A stretch of DNA of 64,000 nucleotides from Phenylobacterium sp. (GTDB lineage: Bacteria; Pseudomonadota; Alphaproteobacteria; Caulobacterales; Caulobacteraceae), in NCBI RefSeq assembly GCF_013911965.1, contig NZ_JACESE010000005.1, positions 1-64,000 of the forward strand. Direction: 5' to 3'. Positions 493 through 35,227 of the stretch are shown here, in pieces. The notes under the pieces are model-generated. The model did no database searches. It was given only the letters and a program-made list of their open reading frames with translations, and was not told where the DNA came from. The translations under genes and the position numbers were made by a program. The number at the start of each line of letters is the position of its first letter. Position 1 is the stretch's first letter.

Positions 493-2445
493 ATGGCCAA
501 GTCCCCGCCCGAAAGCCCGGTCGAACCCTTCAAGCGCGCGCTGGCCAACGCCGCGCGCTCGCTCGCGGAATCGCCCGACCTGGAGATCGTCTATTCCGGC
601 GAAGGCCCGCAGCTGCAGGGCAACCGCGCCATCCTGCCCCATCCGCCGCGCGACCTGGGTCCCGACGATGCGGCCCGCATCCGCGGCCTGGCCGACCAGA
701 TGGCCCTGCGCCTGGCCCACCACGACGCCGGAGTCCACGCCAAGGGCCGCCCGCAGTCGGCGCAGGGGGGCCCGGTCTACGACGCCATCGAACGCGCCCG
801 CACAGAGGCCATCGGCGCCAATGCCCTGGGCGGCGTGCGCGAGAACCTGAAGGCGGTGTGGGACCAGGCCTACGCCAAGAAGGTCTTCAACCCCATCGAG
901 GCCCAGGCCAATCCGCCGATGGAGGAGATCGTCGGCCTGATAGTGCGCGAGCGCCTGACCGGCGAGCCGCCGCCGCCATCCGCCAAACCTCTGGTCGACC
1001 TGTTCCGCGCCGATATCGAGGCCAAGGCCGGCGCCGACCTCGACAGGCTGCTGGCCAATATCGAGGACCAGAAGGCGTTCGGGAAGGTCGCCAAGACGAT
1101 CCTGCGCGACCTCTCCATGGGCGACGACCTGTCCGACGCTCCCGAACAGCCTGACGAGGACGAGGAGGGCGGCGACGAGGGCGAGGCCGAGGCGTCCGAG
1201 GATCAGGAAGGCGGCGAGGGCGAGGACCAGTCCCCGCAGCAGACCGCCATGGACGACAGCGAGGCCACGCACCGGGAAAGCGAAGAGACCGACACCCAGG
1301 TGATGACGGCCGAGGACGACCCCGACGCCGAGGACACCGACGACCAGCCGGACATGGGCGAGGGCGAACAGCCCGCGCGGCCCGAGCTGCGCGGCGAGCC
1401 CAAGACGCCGACCTACAAGGTCTTCTCCACCGCCCACGACGAGATCGTGGCGGCCGAGGAGCTCTGCGAGGCCGAGGAGCTGGGCCGCCTGCGCGCCTAT
1501 CTCGACCAGCAGCTGGCGAGCCTGTCGACGGTCGTCTCGCGCCTGGCCAACAAGCTGCAGCGCAAGCTGATGGCCCAGCAGAACCGCACCTGGTCCTTCG
1601 ACCTGGAGGAAGGGATGCTCGATGTCGCGCGGCTGACCCGCGTCATCATCGATCCGACCGCGCCCCTCTCCTTCAAGGAGGAGAAGGACATGGAATTCCG
1701 GGACACGGTCGTCACCATCCTGATCGACAATTCCGGCTCCATGCGCGGCCGTCCGATCATGGTCGCCGCCGTCTGCGCCGACATCCTGGCCCGCACGCTC
1801 GAGCGTTGCGGCGTGAAGACCGAGATCCTGGGCTTCACCACGCGCGCCTGGAAGGGCGGCTCGAGCCGCGAGGACTGGCTGAAGGCCGGCAAGCCGCCGC
1901 AGCCCGGCCGGCTGAACGACCTGCGTCACATCATCTACAAGGCCGCCGACGCCCCCTGGCGCCGCGCCCGGCGCAATCTCGGCCTGATGATGCGCGAGGG
2001 CCTGCTGAAGGAGAACATCGACGGCGAGGCCCTGATGTGGGCGCACCACCGCCTGATGGGGCGACCGGAGCAGCGGCGCATCCTGATGGTCATCTCCGAC
2101 GGCGCGCCGGTGGACGATTCGACCCTGTCGGTGAACTCCGGCCACTACCTCGAACGTCACCTGCGCGAGGTGATCGAGGAGATCGAGACCAAGAGCCCGG
2201 TGCAGCTGATCGCCATCGGCATCGGGCACGACGTGACCCGCTACTACCGCCGCGCGGTGACCATCGTCGATGTGGAGCAGCTGGCCGGCGTCATCGTCGA
2301 CCAGCTGGCCGAGCTCTTCGACGAGGAGGTGCGCAAGCCCACCCGGGCCACGGCCAGCCTGCTGCAGCCGCCGCCGACCACGCAGGGGCCGAGCGGCCCG
2401 ACGCGGGGATCGACCTTCAAGGAAGTCCGGAGAGCGCTCGCGTGA
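493..2445 (+). CDS. cobT: Cobaltochelatase subunit CobT
   Basis: 650 residues, the usual length of CobT, the large subunit of the aerobic cobalt chelatase CobNST that inserts Co2+ into hydrogenobyrinic acid a,c-diamide in cobalamin synthesis (known role). The N-terminal half carries the CobT family domain, followed by a very acidic linker (about residues 215-305) and a C-terminal von Willebrand A domain with a MIDAS motif DNSGS at residues 412-416. The ATG at 493 has AAGAGG just upstream. The partner cobS, often adjacent in alphaproteobacteria, is not upstream here; instead a transposase tail and a DUF1328 gene are. The next gene overlaps by 4 bp (GTGA). Confidence 0.95.
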
Positions 2446-3404
2446 CCCACCTGCCCCGTCTGGCGTCCCTCATCGTCGCGGCGGGGCTCGCCGCCTGCGC
2501 CCCCGAGACGGCGAAGCTGCCCTCGGCGCCGGTCGCCGCCGGCCCGGGAATCGCCGTGACCGCCCAGGCCGTGCCGCTGAACCCCGACGCCCCGGGACAG
2601 AGCGCCATCGGCGCCTTCCGCTACGCCGGAGGCCTCGCCCTCTCGGCGGAGAGCACGGCGCGATTCCATGGCCTGTCCGATCTCGTGGTGAGCGAAGACG
2701 GCGCGCTGACCGCCATCAGCGACGAGGGCGACCTGATCGAGGGCCGGCTGGTCTTCGCCGACGGGCGCCTGAGCGGCCTGGCCGACGTCCGGCTGGCGCC
2801 CCTGCCCGGGCTCGATGGCCAGCCCCTGCAGAACAAGGCCCAGTCCGACGCCGAAGGGCTCGCCATCCTGCCCAATGGCGACCGCCTGGTCAGCTTCGAG
2901 CGCGACCATCGAATCTGGCTCTATCCCGCCGACGGCTCGCCGCCACGTCCCGCGCCGACGCCCGAGGCGGACTTCCCCGCCAATGGCGGTCTGGAGGCTT
3001 TGGGCGCCGATCCGCAGTCGGCGCCGGACGCCTATGTCGCCGGCGGAGAAGATTCGGGGCAGACCTGGACCTGCCGGGTCTCGGCCGGCTGCACGGCGGC
3101 CTACCTGGTGGAGAAGCCTGCGGACTACGGCCTCGTCGCCCTGCGCCGGCTGCCGCAGGACCGCACCGCATACCTCCTGCGCGCCTGGGACCCGCTGCGG
3201 GGCAACCGCATCGTCCTGACGATCCGCGGCCCGGCCGGCGAGATCGCGCGCATGGAGATGGAGCGGCCGCTGACCATCGACAATTTCGAAGGCGTGGACT
3301 TCGTCCCGCGCGAGGATGGCGGCTATCGCCTCTACCTGCTGGCCGACGACAATTTCCAGAGCAGCCAGCGCACCCTGCTGCTGGCCTTCGACTGGACGCC
3401 CTGA
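2442..3404 (+). CDS. Phytase/esterase-like lipoprotein (PF13449-type)
   Basis: 320 residues starting with GTG overlapping the cobT stop (GTGA), so translation is probably coupled. The first 18 residues form a lipoprotein signal with lipobox LAAC. The body resembles the esterase-like domain of phytases, a beta-propeller-like fold: repeated G-x-D-D/S motifs, [14 protein letters not shown] and NFEGVDF. This family is commonly found just upstream of rpmB and beside cobT in Caulobacterales (from memory). The substrate is unknown. It probably acts in the periplasm, anchored in a membrane. Confidence 0.8.
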
Positions 3405-3431
3405 GGGCGGAAGACGAAACAGCCGAAAACG

Positions 3432-3459
3432 AAAAAGGCCGGCCCCGCAGGACCGGCCT
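3432..3459 (-). terminator. Rho-independent terminator of rpmB
   Basis: AGGCCGG at 3436-3442 pairs with CCGGCCT at 3453-3459; on the minus strand the stem is followed by TTTTT. It lies between the convergent lipoprotein gene and rpmB and could stop both, but the T-run favours rpmB. Confidence 0.75.
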
Positions 3460-3483
3460 CTTCGAACCGTCAGGTCGCCTGGA

Positions 3484-3780
3484 TCAGGCGGCCTTGGTCT
3501 CGGCGAGCTTGGCCTTCAGCTGGCGCTTGATCTTCAGAGCGCGCGGCGAGAGCTGCTCGTCGCGGGCCTTGACCAGGAAGGCGTCGAGGCCGCCCTTGAA
3601 GTCGAGCGTGCGCAGCGCCGCATTGCTGACGCGCAGCTTGAACGACTGGCCGAGCGCGTCGGACTGCAGGGTCGCCGGAGACAGCGCCGGCAGGAAGCGG
3701 CGCTTGGTCTTGATATTCGAGTGGCTGACGTTGTGACCGACCATCGGACCAACGCCAGTGAGTTCGCAGCGGCGCGACAT
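3484..3780 (-). CDS. rpmB: 50S ribosomal protein L28
   Basis: 98 residues, typical of alphaproteobacterial L28 (longer than the 78-residue E. coli form by a C-terminal Lys/Ala-rich extension). The start MSRRCELTG and the [10 protein letters not shown] segment are the family signature. It is part of the large ribosomal subunit. The ATG at 3780 is fixed by the conserved N terminus. Transcribed alone from the long intergenic region shared with the TetR gene and ended by its own terminator. Confidence 0.97.
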
Positions 3781-4181
3781 GGTGTTCAACCTTCGCGTGG
3801 AAACCAAAACGGCGGGACCAGCCCGCGCAAGAGAGCGGGCGATATAGGCGAAAGCCGCCCGGCCCGTCAAGGCGGCGCGGGTCGGGATCTGCCTCGCGCC
3901 GTCCGCCGCATCGCCGCCGCCGTCGCCGGCCGCCCTGCGACCGCGTGACTCAGGGCGCACACGGAGCTTCTGGGTTGTGGTTAATCAAGCTTAAGCTACA
4001 ATACTTGGTATGGAACAAAGCCCGAATCGGCGCGAGTCGCTGATTCGGTCCTGATTCGTTTCGCCCGCGTTCCGGCGCGCCGGCTGGCCGCGTTAACCGC
4101 CCCCCTGTGAACAGACAAGCCTTGCCTTGCGGCCGTTTTCGGCACAGTAATAACTGACCGGTCAGTTATTAGTTAGGCGCC
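3781..4181. other. 401-bp divergent intergenic region (rpmB / tetR)
   Basis: No gene seen. It holds the rpmB leader, an AT-rich patch at about 3978-4020 that stands out against the GC-rich background and includes the palindrome AGCTTAAGCT (3988-3997), and a hairpin at 4024-4046 (GAATC-g-GCG, 5-nt loop, CGC-t-GATTC). The TetR operator closes its right end. The hairpin lacks a T-run, so I cannot call it a terminator; a small RNA or leader structure is possible. Confidence 0.5.
4148..4171. promoter_or_regulatory. Perfect 24-bp palindromic operator for the TetR-type regulator
   Basis: The 12-base half-site TAATAACTGACC is followed immediately by its exact reverse complement. It ends 10 bp before the regulator ATG and overlaps the plausible -10 region (TAATAA with TTGCCT/TTGCGG upstream), as expected for an autoregulatory TetR operator that blocks RNA polymerase. 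Confidence 0.85.
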
Positions 4182-4820
4182 ATGCTCCCCTCCGGCCAGC
4201 CGAAGTTCCGCCGCCGCAAGGCCGCCCGACCCGACGAGATCGTCGCCGCGGCGCTGGAGATCTTTTCGGAGAAGGGCTTCGCCGCCGCCCGCCTGGACGA
4301 CATCGCCGCCCGGGCCGGCGTGTCCAAAGGCGCCATCTACCTCTACTTCGCGACCAAGGAAGACATCTTCCGCGCGGTCATCGCCCAGGCCGTCCTGCCC
4401 AATGTCGGGCAGATCCGGCAGCTGGCGGCGGCCCATCCCGGCCCGTTCTCCGATCTCGCACGGGGTCTGGCGGCGCTCGCCCCGACGCTGCTCGCCCGCT
4501 CCGAGCTTGGCGGGGTGATCAAGATGGTGGTGGGCGAGGCCCGGAATTTCCCCGAAATCGCCCGTTTGTGGCACGACCAGGTGATCGACCCGGCCCTGGG
4601 GGCGCTGAGCGAGGCCATCGGCGCCGCCCAGGCCCGCGGCGAAGTCCGGCCAGGCGATCCCCGACTCTACGCCCTGGGGCTCATAGGCCCCCTGCTGGCG
4701 GGCGTCATCTGGCGCGAGACCTTCACGCCGGTGGGCGCGGAGCCCTTCGATCTGCCCACCCTCGCCCGTCAGCATTTCGAGACCGCCCTGCGGGGCATGA
4801 GCCCGGACCCAACGGCATGA
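4182..4820 (+). CDS. TetR/AcrR-family repressor of the adjoining ABC exporter
   Basis: 212 residues. The N terminus has the TetR helix-turn-helix: EIVAAALEIFSEKGF, then ARAGVSKGAIYLYF (about residues 20-60). The rest is an all-helical ligand-binding and dimerisation domain. It overlaps the downstream HlyD gene by ATGA and sits behind a perfect palindrome that overlaps its own promoter, so it most likely represses the whole four-gene operon and is released by a substrate of the pump. The arrangement matches E. coli cecR(ybiH)-ybhG-ybhF-ybhS-ybhR (known); ligand not predictable. Confidence 0.93.
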   Translation: MLPSGQPKFRRRKAARPDEIVAAALEIFSEKGFAAARLDDIAARAGVSKGAIYLYFATKEDIFRAVIAQAVLPNVGQIRQLAAAHPGPFSDLARGLAALAPTLLARSELGGVIKMVVGEARNFPEIARLWHDQVIDPALGALSEAIGAAQARGEVRPGDPRLYALGLIGPLLAGVIWRETFTPVGAEPFDLPTLARQHFETALRGMSPDPTA

Positions 4821-5797
4821 ATCGCCAGCGTCTCCTCATCGTCGGTCTGGTCGCGGTCGCCGGCGCGATCGTCCTTGCGCTCTGGCTGGCGCCGCGGCTG
4901 GGACATGTTGACACCCTCACGGGTTACGTCGAGGGCGAGCCGCTCTACCTCGCCTCCCCCGTCTCCGGCGCGCTGACGTCGGTGGCGGTCAGCCGCGGGC
5001 AGAGGGTCGGCGCAGGACAGCCCCTGTTCGTCGTCGACCCCGACCAGGCCGCCGCACAGCTGGACCAGGCGCAGGCCGCGGCCGAGGCGGCCGAAGCCCA
5101 GGTCGCCGATGCGCGAAAGGGCGGCCGGCCGGCCGAACTGGCCGTGCTGGAGGCCAACATCGCCGCAGCCGAGGCCCGCGCCCGCGAGGCCCAGGCCGAG
5201 CTTCGCCGCGTGGCGACGCTGGCCGAGACGGGCGTCTATGCGCCGGCCCGCCTCGACGACGCCCGCGCCGCGGCCGAAGCCGCCCGGGCCCAGCTCGCCG
5301 CCGCCCGCCGCCAGCGGGACGCTGCGGCCCTGGGCGCGCGGGAGGACCTGCTGCGCGCTGCGGAGTCCCGCGTGCGCGAGGCGCAGGCCCAGGTCGCCGC
5401 CGCCGGCGCCCGCCTGGACGACCTGTCGCCCGCGGCCCCCGCCGCCGCGCGGGTCGAGGACGTCTTCTATCAGGAAGGCGAGTGGGTGGCGGCCAACCAG
5501 CCGGTCCTGTCCCTGCTGCCGGACGACCGGGTCAAGATCCGCTTCTTCGCGCCCCAGGACACGATCCAGGCCTATCGCCCCGGCCGGACCGTCGCCTTCT
5601 CCTGTGACGGCTGCCCGGCGGACCTGACGGCGGAGATCACCTATGTGAGTCCGCGGCCCGAATTCACCCCGCCGGTGATCTACAGCCGCGAGGCCCGCGA
5701 CCGGCTTGTCTATCTGGTGGAGGCGCGGCCGTCCCGGCTGCTCAATCCGGGGCAACCGGTGGACGTTCGCCCGCTGGCCACGGAGCGGGCCCGGTGA
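4817..5797 (+). CDS. HlyD/YbhG-like membrane fusion protein
   Basis: 326 residues with one N-terminal membrane anchor (about residues 5-27), then a biotinyl-lipoyl-like segment (YLASPVSGAL...VSRGQRVGAGQPLF), a long Ala/Glu/Arg-rich coiled-coil hairpin (about 80-215) and a C-terminal beta barrel. This is the periplasmic adaptor layout that links an inner-membrane ABC transporter to an outer-membrane channel. ATGA overlap with tetR and GTGA overlap with the ATPase gene show tight coupling. No outer-membrane factor gene is adjacent, so TolC-like partner would be elsewhere. Confidence 0.9.
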   Translation: MNRQRLLIVGLVAVAGAIVLALWLAPRLGHVDTLTGYVEGEPLYLASPVSGALTSVAVSRGQRVGAGQPLFVVDPDQAAAQLDQAQAAAEAAEAQVADARKGGRPAELAVLEANIAAAEARAREAQAELRRVATLAETGVYAPARLDDARAAAEAARAQLAAARRQRDAAALGAREDLLRAAESRVREAQAQVAAAGARLDDLSPAAPAAARVEDVFYQEGEWVAANQPVLSLLPDDRVKIRFFAPQDTIQAYRPGRTVAFSCDGCPADLTAEITYVSPRPEFTPPVIYSREARDRLVYLVEARPSRLLNPGQPVDVRPLATERAR

Positions 5798-6711
5798 CCC
5801 TGGCCATCGACGTGCGGGGGCTGAACAAGAGCTTCGGCGACAAGCACGTGGTGCAGGACGTCTCCATTCAGGTCGAGCAGGGCCGCATCTGCGGCTTCCT
5901 CGGCCCCAACGGCTCGGGCAAGACCACGACGCTTCGCATGCTCTGCGGCCTGCTGACGCCGGATTCGGGCGAAGGCGCCTGCCTGGGCTTCGACATCCTG
6001 CGCCAGGCCGGCGAGATCAAGCGGCGCACCGGCTACATGACCCAGAAGTTCTCGCTCTACGAGGACCTGACGATCGCGGAGAACCTGCAGTTCACCGCCC
6101 GGGTCTATGGGCTGGACCGGCGGCGACAGCGGGTGGATTCCGCGCTCGAGCGCCTGGGCCTGTCGGCGCGGCGCGGACAGCTGGCCGGCGCGCTGTCCGG
6201 CGGCTGGAAGCAGCGCCTGGCCCTGGCCGCCGCCACCCTGCACGAGCCGCAGCTTCTCCTGCTCGACGAGCCCACCGCCGGCGTCGACCCGCTGGCGCGG
6301 CGCACCTTCTGGGACGAGATCCACGCCCTGTCGGGCCAGGGCCTGACCGTGCTGGTCTCCACCCACTACATGGACGAGGCCGAGCGGTGCCATGAGATCG
6401 CCTATATCAGCTATGGCCGCCTGATCGCCCGGGGCACGGCCGGCGAGGTGGCCGACCAGGCCCGCCTCGTCACCCTGCGCGGCGAAGGCCCGGGGATCGA
6501 CCGGCTGTCGGGCGAGATCGACGGCGCGCCCGGCGTCGACAGCGTCGCCCCCTTCGGCGCGGCCCTGCACGTCAGCGGCTCGGACCGGGCGGCGCTGGAG
6601 ACCGCCCTGAAGCCCTGGATGCGCCCGCCCTATCGCTGGACCGAGGTCGAGCCGACGCTGGAGGACGTCTTCATCAAGCTGATGAAGACCTCGCAGGACA
6701 ATTTCCGATGA
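5794..6711 (+). CDS. ABC transporter ATP-binding protein (YbhF-type, single domain)
   Basis: 305 residues. Walker A GPNGSGKT at residues 37-44, signature LSGGWKQR, Walker B LLLLDEPTAGVD and the switch histidine in STHYMDEAE are intact. E. coli YbhF has two ATPase domains; this one has a single domain and presumably works as a homodimer. GTG start overlaps the adaptor stop (GTGA) and its own stop overlaps the permease start (ATGA). It powers export by the adjoining permease. Confidence 0.93.
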   Translation: MTLAIDVRGLNKSFGDKHVVQDVSIQVEQGRICGFLGPNGSGKTTTLRMLCGLLTPDSGEGACLGFDILRQAGEIKRRTGYMTQKFSLYEDLTIAENLQFTARVYGLDRRRQRVDSALERLGLSARRGQLAGALSGGWKQRLALAAATLHEPQLLLLDEPTAGVDPLARRTFWDEIHALSGQGLTVLVSTHYMDEAERCHEIAYISYGRLIARGTAGEVADQARLVTLRGEGPGIDRLSGEIDGAPGVDSVAPFGAALHVSGSDRAALETALKPWMRPPYRWTEVEPTLEDVFIKLMKTSQDNFR

Positions 6712-33068: not shown

Positions 33069-33758
33069 ATGCAAAGCCCCGCCATCGACCTGACCGTCCA
33101 TCATCAGCCCAAGGGCGCGGCCGATCGCGTCGCCTTCGGCTTCGTCAAGCTGCTGCGGTTCTGCGCCGACACCTTCTTCGCCAAGCGTTATGGCCATCGC
33201 GCCGTGGTGCTGGAGACCGTGGCGGCGGTGCCGGGCATGGTGGGCGCGACGCTCAACCACCTGAAGTGCCTGCGCCGCATGTGCGACGACCGCGGCTGGA
33301 TCAAGACGCTGATGGATGAGGCCGAGAACGAGCGCATGCACCTGATGACCTTCATCGAGGTGGCCAAGCCGACCCTGTTCGAGCGCTTCGTGGTCGTCGC
33401 CGCCCAGTGGGTCTTCTACCTGTTCTTCTTCGGCCTCTATCTGATCTCGCCGAAGACCGCCCACCGCGTGGTCGGCTATTTCGAGGAAGAGGCGGTGATC
33501 AGCTACACTCACTATCTCGCCGAGATCGACGAGGGCCGTTCGGAGAACGTGCCGGCGCCGGCCATCGCCAAGGCCTACTGGAACCTGCCCGACGACGCGA
33601 CCCTGCGTGACGTGGTCGAGGTGGTCCGCGCCGATGAGGCCCACCACCGCGACGTGAACCACGACTTCGCCAACGAGCTGGCCGGCCTGCCGCAAGGCGT
33701 GGTCGCCCCCTGCCCGCCGCACGTGACCCTGGAGCCGGCCTGGAAGCAGGCGGCCTGA
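33069..33758 (+). CDS. aox: Alternative oxidase (diiron ubiquinol oxidase)
   Basis: 229 residues. All four AOX motifs are present with their iron ligands: LETVAAVPG (Glu49), NERMHLM (Glu88, His91), FEEEAV (Glu139) and RADEAHHRD (Glu190, His193). Two hydrophobic stretches (about 105-128 and 45-62) fit monotopic binding to the inner membrane. AOX reduces O2 to water with ubiquinol without pumping protons, bypassing cytochrome oxidases (known). Bacterial AOX is uncommon and patchy. The closest downstream genes are a small ORF and a second diiron protein on the same strand. Start chosen at the only reasonable ATG; the leader is GC-mixed with a possible stem TACTCAA/TTGAGTA. Confidence 0.96.
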
Positions 33759-33810: not shown

Positions 33811-34026
33811 ATGATGCAGACCTACGAATTGATGATGGATGTCAGGGGGGAGCGGGTCTTCGTTCCCCTGACCTGCCGTCCCGGCGAACTGATCACCCTG
33901 GCCCGCCGGGCCCTGGCCGAGGCCGGCGCCTCCAGCTGCGACATCACGCAGTTCGGCGACCTGCTCTTCTCGCTGGACGTGGCCGACGCGCCTCCGCGGC
34001 GCCCCCAGCCGGCCAACGCCCCTTGA
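33811..34026 (+). CDS. Small hypothetical protein between aox and the diiron gene
   Basis: 71 residues. GGAGG lies 6 nt before tandem ATGs (33811, 33814). The sequence has a compact alpha/beta-looking core (TYELMMDVRGERVFVPLTCRPGE, then a helix LITLARRALAEAG and SCDITQFGDLLFSLDV) and a Pro-rich tail. No family recognised. Its stop overlaps the FNR-like box that drives the next gene. Position suggests an accessory role with aox. Confidence 0.7.
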   Translation: MMQTYELMMDVRGERVFVPLTCRPGELITLARRALAEAGASSCDITQFGDLLFSLDVADAPPRRPQPANAP

Positions 34027-34036
34027 CCCATGTCAA
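34023..34036 (+). promoter_or_regulatory. FNR/FixK-type box upstream of the diiron gene
   Basis: TTGAC-CCAT-GTCAA, a perfect inverted repeat matching the TTGAY-N4-RTCAA consensus of FNR/FixK/Dnr. A TATAGT hexamer (34058-34063) begins exactly 21 nt after it, the geometry of a class II activated promoter (site centred near -41). Confidence 0.75.
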
Positions 34037-34058
34037 AGATGACGCCGGCGTCATCTTT
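34035..34058. promoter_or_regulatory. 24-bp perfect palindrome between activator box and -10
   Basis: Half-site AAAGATGACGCC followed directly by its reverse complement. It fills the spacer between the FNR-like box and the -10 hexamer, so a bound repressor would exclude RNA polymerase. The AAGATG...CATCTT edges resemble NsrR sites, but the centre does not match. Confidence 0.75.
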
Positions 34059-34108
34059 ATAGTGGCTCTTGAGCTCGGCGATGGAACCGGGCCGAAGGGA
34101 GCCAAGCC

Positions 34109-35227
34109 ATGCTGCATGTTCAGATCGTCCAGGGACCGCCGACCGAGGTCCAGACCTTCGATGACGACGACCTCGCCCGCCGCCTGACCGACCACGACGT
34201 CGACTGCATCCGCGAGATCTTCAACACTCCGCTGACCGGGTCCTACAACTGGGACTACGAGACGGCGAACACGAAGATCCGCAAGCTCTACGAGCTCGGC
34301 AAGCGGTTCAACTGGAACTCCGAGCTCGACATCGACTGGGACCAGCCCCTGCCCCAGCGCCCGGCCGCCGCGGGCGAGGACGACGGGCCCGAGGGCTTCA
34401 AGGACCATCCCAAGTGGAAGGCCCTGACGCCGGCCCAGAAGGCCGAGTTCGCCCACCGCTCGCAGGCCCAGACCCTGTCGCAGTTCCTGCACGGCGAGCA
34501 GGGCGCCCTGATGGTGGCCTCGCAGCTGGTCAGCTGCGCGCCGACCCACGACGCCAAGCTCTACGCCGCCTCCCAGACCTTCGACGAGGCCCGCCACGTC
34601 GAGGTGTTCCACAAGTACCTGATGCACCGCTGCCGGATGATCTATCCGATCAATCCGAGCCTGAAGTTCCTGCTCGACAAGGTGCTCACCGACCAGCGCT
34701 GGGACCTGAAGTTCATCGGCATGCAGATCCTGATCGAGGGCCTGGCGCTGGCGGCCTTCCAGACCATCCACGAGACCACCGAGGACCCGCTGCTGCGCGA
34801 CGTGGTGGGCCTGGTCATGCGTGACGAGGGCCGGCACGTGGCCTTCGGCGTCAACTATCTGGAGGACTGGATCCGCGCCCTGCCGCAGGAGGAGATCGAG
34901 GAGCGCGCCCAGTTCGCCTACGAGGCCTGCGTCGTCATGCGCAACCGCCTCGTCTCCACGACGGTCGCCGAGGAGTTCGGCTTCACGCCCGAGGAGGCCA
35001 TGGAGATCAACAACGCCAGCCAGGGCGGCCAGGCGTTCCGCAAGTTCCTGTTCGAACGGATGATCCCGAACCTGAAGCGCGTCGGCCTGCTGACCGACAA
35101 GGTGCGGCCGAAGTTCGAGGAACTGGGCGTGCTGGAGTTCGAGAACCTGAAGCACGACGGCGCCATCGACTGGGCGACCCTGGAACGTCCCCTCACCGTC
35201 GGCGACGGCAAGGTCATCGCCGCCTGA
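34109..35227 (+). CDS. Ferritin-like diiron protein (R2/AurF-like)
   Basis: 372 residues. A four-helix diiron core can be read directly: Glu130 (HGEQG), Glu160 and His163 (FDEARH), Glu210 (LIEG), Glu240 and His243 (RDEGRH), the E-ExxH-E-ExxH pattern of ferritin-like oxidases such as ribonucleotide reductase R2, R2lox and AurF. Substrate unknown; oxidase, oxygenase or peroxide reductase activity is possible. Found widely in proteobacteria and mycobacteria as an unassigned ferritin-like protein. It has its own FNR-like promoter and a strong terminator, and follows another diiron enzyme, aox. Confidence 0.88.
   Translation: MLHVQIVQGPPTEVQTFDDDDLARRLTDHDVDCIREIFNTPLTGSYNWDYETANTKIRKLYELGKRFNWNSELDIDWDQPLPQRPAAAGEDDGPEGFKDHPKWKALTPAQKAEFAHRSQAQTLSQFLHGEQGALMVASQLVSCAPTHDAKLYAASQTFDEARHVEVFHKYLMHRCRMIYPINPSLKFLLDKVLTDQRWDLKFIGMQILIEGLALAAFQTIHETTEDPLLRDVVGLVMRDEGRHVAFGVNYLEDWIRALPQEEIEERAQFAYEACVVMRNRLVSTTVAEEFGFTPEEAMEINNASQGGQAFRKFLFERMIPNLKRVGLLTDKVRPKFEELGVLEFENLKHDGAIDWATLERPLTVGDGKVIAA

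Follow-up and report, generated by a model that had tools for sequence, protein, structure and literature searches.

An AurF-like diiron protein gene of Phenylobacterium sp. is preceded by a 41-bp block in which a FixK/FNR-type box, a perfect 24-bp palindrome and a presumed −10 element run into one another. We read this block as a promoter of class II, activated by FixK/FNR, with a spacer that would double as the operator of a repressor, probably of the TetR type, that governs an oxygenase regulon; we put the probability of this reading at roughly 0.7.

A presumed promoter block of fused elements upstream of a diiron protein gene

In the window, that is, the whole 64-kb stretch of DNA analyzed here, sequence reading places a box of the form TTGAC-N4-GTCAA on the forward strand at 34023-34036 (TTGACCCATGTCAA; TTGAC-CCAT-GTCAA), with zero mismatches to the pattern TTGAY-N4-RTCAA. 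The palindrome AAAGATGACGCCGGCGTCATCTTT, a strandless element identified from the sequence and from genome comparison, occupies 34035-34058 and is the presumed operator. The presumed −10 element, TATAGT, follows on the forward strand at 34058-34063, as judged from the sequence and an offset scan. All three elements had been named in the original prediction, and their coordinates were confirmed in the sequence. The prediction had also claimed that the palindrome shares one base with the box; the overlap is real but comprises two bases, and one base is shared with TATAGT. The gap between box and hexamer is 21 nt (34037-34057), which is the spacing of class II FNR promoters.

Perfect palindromes of at least 24 bp are expected 0.02 times in the window from base composition alone, and two of exactly this length were found. 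The other one (4148-4171) lies just 5′ of a TetR gene (4182-4820), itself followed by a gene resembling an HlyD-type efflux protein, and looks like an ordinary TetR self-operator. As for the block upstream of the diiron gene, it is conserved across related genomes and hence not a chance feature.

The gene downstream of the block (34109-35227, forward strand) encodes an AurF-like carboxylate-bridged diiron protein of 372 aa with a match to PF11583 (AurF; E = 8.8e-17, above the cut-off). Six ligand-type residues, E130, E160, H163, E210, E240 and H243, are invariant in an alignment of 31 sequences, among them one AurF_B and one AurF_C member, and together with the family match they bear out the predicted nature of the target gene. 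An AlphaFold2 model of the protein is helical, with a mean pLDDT of 77.8. Directly after the gene, the segment 35375-40903 brings together isocitrate lyase, malate synthase and, on the opposite strand, an ScfR-type HTH/IrrE regulator.

The upstream neighbor is an alternative oxidase gene (33069-33758, forward strand; PF01786, E = 2.6e-85), which had been thought relevant to the function of the promoter. This did not hold up, since a tblastn search of the fetched loci recovered the oxidase only in L001, L083 and L109, all of them copies of the window's own locus; the gene probably lies outside the module. Between the two genes, a small ORF of 71 aa (33811-34026, forward strand), which runs into the first bases of the box at its 3′ end, has no family match, and no match to it was seen among the fetched loci beyond the window's own.

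Conservation upstream of homologous diiron genes

Among 468 loci, 80 were kept as diiron homologues, and 79 upstream regions were read and scored over 300 nt; L022, in which the gene start is truncated, was excluded from this reading. The original prediction had proposed to look for the palindrome at homologous diiron genes of related genomes, and the comparison shows conservation: the palindrome (at most two mismatches) is present in 62 of the 79 regions, the box (at most one mismatch) in 52 and both together in 45. The fixed spacing is not kept in Caulobacter-type loci. The pairing of box and palindrome at diiron genes is thus not universal. As a background, the box matched with at most one mismatch in 86 of 2,094 random 300-nt windows from the same loci.

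Breaking the loci down by type, the 19 closest Phenylobacterium-type loci (L003-L020 and L072) have the palindrome in 15 cases when one mismatch is allowed and in 17 when two are, and 18 have the box (at most one mismatch) at the same gene. Caulobacter-type loci (n = 14) show each element 13 times. Here, however, the box is found 166 to 283 nt from the diiron gene in 12 of the 14, the fused block being present only in L023, and the fused geometry is thus not kept in those 12. A distal FixK box along with a palindrome near the start codon is seen in L024, L025, L027-L032, L034, L036, L039 and L051. Both elements are present in all 15 loci of a Hyphomonadaceae group (L057-L077), with mostly 10 to 27 nt between palindrome and start codon and with the box farther upstream. 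The 15 Hyphomonas/Henriciella loci all have the palindrome and one has the box, leaving 14 with the palindrome only, whereas the three Zavarzinia loci have the box in every case and the palindrome in none. Neither element was detected in the 300 nt scored upstream of the Halieaceae genes or of L021, a homologue with 76% identity.

Two further arrangements were observed. At L006 and L085, a second palindrome sits just upstream of the FixK box, which thus has a palindrome on either side. Five Hyphomonadaceae loci (L352, L354, L355, L357 and L359) have the box next to the palindrome in the interval that separates a Zincin_1 metallopeptidase-like gene from an AurF-like gene.

Genes preceded by the palindrome

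The palindrome is not confined to the diiron gene. When up to one mismatch was allowed, AARWTGACGCNNGCGTCAWYTT was found in 95 of 101 genomes of the genus (218 sites; none with a reversed-pattern control), its exact form in 4 of the 22 genera of the family, or 73 of 390 genomes (control, 0), and a slightly wider pattern in 21 of the 24 genomes reached via the diiron loci (control, 0), all of these being counts over related genomes and so not independent observations. The exact motif was found in none of the 131 genomes of genus g6.

Which genes does the palindrome precede? Pooling all loci gave 130 unique sites (at most one mismatch), 128 of which have a listed target within 300 nt, on a list that was drawn up after the loci had been inspected and in which PF10118, acyl-CoA dehydrogenase and L371 are matched by their own locus. 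We examined 71 pattern-found loci, taking one site per locus among the sites listed (3 from the window's own genome, 29 from the genus, 15 from the family and 24 from the diiron-reached genomes, the last picked for carrying the diiron gene). In 66 of them, the palindrome stands before one of six recurring kinds of gene: the present diiron gene (20), Coq4 (16), CYP153 (9), ferredoxin reductase (9), AurF_B (8) or a desaturase operon (4). The remaining five are a ferredoxin gene, a PF10118 gene, an acyl-CoA dehydrogenase gene, L371 (with a sub-threshold match to aldehyde decarbonylase) and L138, where the site precedes another P450.

The recurring P450 target is CYP153-like (3rwl, CYP153A7, E = 2.3e-169; top match, 6hqg), and the desaturase belongs to PF00487 (FA_desaturase). 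The AurF_B paralogue group falls below the PF11583 cut-off (23.3 versus 29.6 bits), but its one aligned member has the ligand-type residues. On L175, from the same genome as the window, three AurF-like paralogues stand in near tandem (1889-6388), close to a palindrome-bearing pair of ferredoxin and reductase genes.

A looser core pattern (one mismatch) yielded seven sites in the window's own genome, compared to one with the control. Among four extra sites, all outside the 71 loci, those at L111 (acyl-CoA dehydrogenase) and L112 (AurF_B) look possible; those at L113 and L114 do not. No palindrome within four mismatches was found at CYP153 plasmid loci of Novosphingobium, Sphingobium and Polaromonas (3 of 111 matching records).

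Two separate elements in a common register

The distribution of the box relative to the palindrome differs by target. In the 300 nt that precede the palindrome, a box (at most one mismatch) is present at 46 of 62 sites of the diiron gene and at both ferredoxin sites, versus 1 of 13 for AurF_B, 1 of 14 for CYP153, and none for reductase (0/12), Coq4 (0/18) and desaturase (0/4). The palindrome is thus without a box at 43 of the 44 CYP153, reductase and Coq4 sites taken together, which argues for two separate inputs, as the predicted dual control would have it.

When the sites of the diiron gene were not selected for register, a box with at most one mismatch was found in the 60 nt preceding the palindrome at 35 of 62, where dinucleotide shuffles predict 0.4, and the exact register of the window recurs at 21 of the 62 diiron sites and at both ferredoxin sites. 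For AurF_B, the same distance holds a box upstream at 1 of 13 sites and on the other side at 5 of 13.

The fused block in the window's register is represented by 24 promoters, two of them at ferredoxin genes. In these, the box has no mismatch in 20 cases, one in three and two in one; since the promoters were chosen for carrying the palindrome and a box with at most two mismatches in fixed register, the high conservation of these two elements is partly a product of that choice. The −10 element was not part of it. Over offsets of 0 to 35 nt after the box, resemblance to TATAAT peaked at 21 nt, with a mean of 3.46 of 6 positions matched, and the runner-up (3.04) was at 19 nt, in agreement with the claim that box, palindrome and −10 element share one register with class II FNR spacing.

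Candidate regulators of the box and the palindrome

A candidate for the activator is L374, a FixK-like protein encoded in the same genome, which matches FixK2 (4i2o; E = 1.7e-54) and has the recognition helix ETVSR. The usual site of the FixK/FNR subfamily is TTGAT-N4-ATCAA. Judged by the box itself, its spacing and the FixK2-like regulator, TTGAC-N4-GTCAA would constitute a class II FixK/FNR site. The genome has seven Crp/Fnr-type HTH matches above 40 bits, and an E-x-x-SR helix is shared by L379 and L380, so the box might be used by another Crp/Fnr protein of similar specificity that is not an oxygen regulator. Given how close a relative of FixK2 L374 is, and given the site preference of the subfamily, we regard this as rather unlikely.

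The position of the palindrome varies: it lies between box and −10 element or, often, 11 to 28 nt before the start codon. This variability fits a repressor better than an activator. As for its class, operators shaped like the 24-bp palindrome are usual for the TetR family, and in 4 of 24 loci, all Hyphomonas-type, a TetR gene (three Pfam-confirmed) and the diiron gene are transcribed away from each other on either side of the palindrome. For these two reasons, TetR appears to be the likeliest class. None of the TetRs compared from the window's own genome is closely related to these Hyphomonas-type neighbors.

Two TetR candidates were considered and set aside. One is adjacent to CYP153 genes (C11 in the window's own genome, L191, L194, L136) and was detected, at E 1e-25, in 54 of the 101 genomes of the genus but in none of 289 others; since Caulobacter and Hyphomonadaceae have sites, we rejected it as the general regulator. 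The other, resembling L158, was picked from a comparison of five genomes (30 TetR frames in the window's own genome, 28 in G306, 24 in G023, 19 in G015 and 15 in G012, among the matches listed). It tracks the number of sites, in that 5 of 18 genus genomes without it are siteless versus 1 of 83 with it. Nonetheless, it is not convincing: 13 genomes of the genus, not all of them complete, keep sites but lack it, whereas most genomes of g6, the genus in which the exact site was not found, have it. On L178, a single 405-aa protein with two TetR domains in an Mce3R-like layout (4566-5783) is encoded ∼3 kb from a fused-block ferredoxin promoter, an arrangement seen once.

Other readings of the palindrome have to be weighed against a TetR-type repressor. 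The original prediction saw in its AAGATG/CATCTT edges a hint of an NsrR-like nitric oxide sensor, and these edges do resemble NsrR half-sites. Rrf2 proteins bind palindromes of similar length, and the window's own genome has four of them above the family cut-off: L386, with three clustered cysteines, is IscR-like by reading, L387 has four, and L388 and L389 have one each after the likely start. An Rrf2-family sensor of NO or of iron-sulfur status, be it NsrR-like or the four-cysteine L387, would thus be at hand. Yet the palindrome core, GATGACGC-NN-GCGTCATC, differs both in sequence and in spacing from the NsrR consensus gATGyAT-N5-ATrCATc, and nsrR was reported, among the alpha-proteobacterial genomes examined, in R. 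capsulatus E1F1 only (PMC1274295); the hint is thus not supported. Nor did the published type I and II IscR motifs of Caulobacter (PMC11475020) resemble the palindrome in a comparison by eye. With targets that look like oxygenases rather than NO detoxification genes, NsrR and IscR are unlikely regulators, and we hold an Rrf2 protein of any kind to be quite improbable here.

Slightly less probable still, in our estimate, is a MerR-type activator bound in the spacer, with the right half of the box, GTCAAA (34032-34037), as a −35 element. The geometry at the window would suit it, as GTCAAA is separated by 20 nt from TATAGT with the dyad center at most 1 bp off the center of that spacer, and a TTGCA-like −35 element stands ahead of the palindrome in several Coq4 promoters. 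But at reductase genes and many CYP153 and diiron genes, a location 11 to 28 nt before the start codon places the palindrome too far downstream for such a mechanism. We give almost no weight to the idea that the palindrome is an RNA hairpin or terminator rather than a protein site: the sequence admits a short stem-loop, and the sites of some genes fall into the presumed leader, but in the window and in the other fused promoters the palindrome lies 5′ of the presumed −10 element and so would not be transcribed, and it also serves divergent promoters.

Discussion

We propose that the block integrates two signals. At low oxygen, a FixK/FNR protein would be recruited to the box, centered ∼41.5 bp upstream of the presumed start, and a repressor seated between box and −10 element would block the polymerase until it leaves on a signal, perhaps a lipid or an acyl-CoA. 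In Phenylobacterium, Caulobacter and Hyphomonadaceae, the same repressor may govern a regulon of oxygenase genes that comprises AurF-like diiron proteins, CYP153, ferredoxin, ferredoxin reductase, Coq4 and a fatty acid desaturase. One point against this proposal is that there would have to be some physiological rationale for switching on an enzyme that consumes oxygen when oxygen is scarce.

Going further, and with somewhat less than even confidence, we suggest that Caulobacterales possess a previously undescribed repressor and regulon for oxygen-dependent lipid and quinone chemistry, and that fusion of its operator to a FixK box at diiron and ferredoxin promoters creates an AND gate that, at low oxygen, would switch oxygenases on only in the presence of a lipid-type signal. 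For a set of oxygenase-type genes whose roles are largely unknown, the palindrome provides a precise operator that can be put to the test, linking AurF-like diiron proteins, CYP153 systems and bacterial Coq4 under one presumed regulator, and it raises the question of why a low-oxygen regulator would activate enzymes that consume oxygen.

The consensus of the palindrome was not found in print in the open-licence part of PubMed Central, a search that motifs published solely as logos would escape. The pairing of a Crp/Fnr-type activator with a repressor is, as a type of control, already known. The E. coli hcp and hcp-hcr type promoters, which are activated by FNR and repressed by NsrR, are a precedent for the logic, and the original statement that no case has been described was too strong in this respect. 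They share with the present promoter a low-oxygen Crp/Fnr activation combined with a repressor that is relieved by a signal, and differ in operator and targets; here, operator, box and −10 element are fused within 41 bp. DesT/FabR and MadR are TetR-family regulators of desaturase genes that respond to acyl-CoA, a parallel to the PF00487 desaturase among our palindrome targets, although the MadR consensus TCTGTG-N7-GT is unlike the palindrome, and the available portions of the accounts of DesT, FabR and MadR feature no FixK box (PMC8872791, PMC4273635). With the FixK/FixK2 regulons of alpha-proteobacteria, finally, the locus has in common the box sequence, the class II spacing and a FixK2-like protein, and it stands apart from them through its AurF-like diiron target and the additional operator in the spacer.
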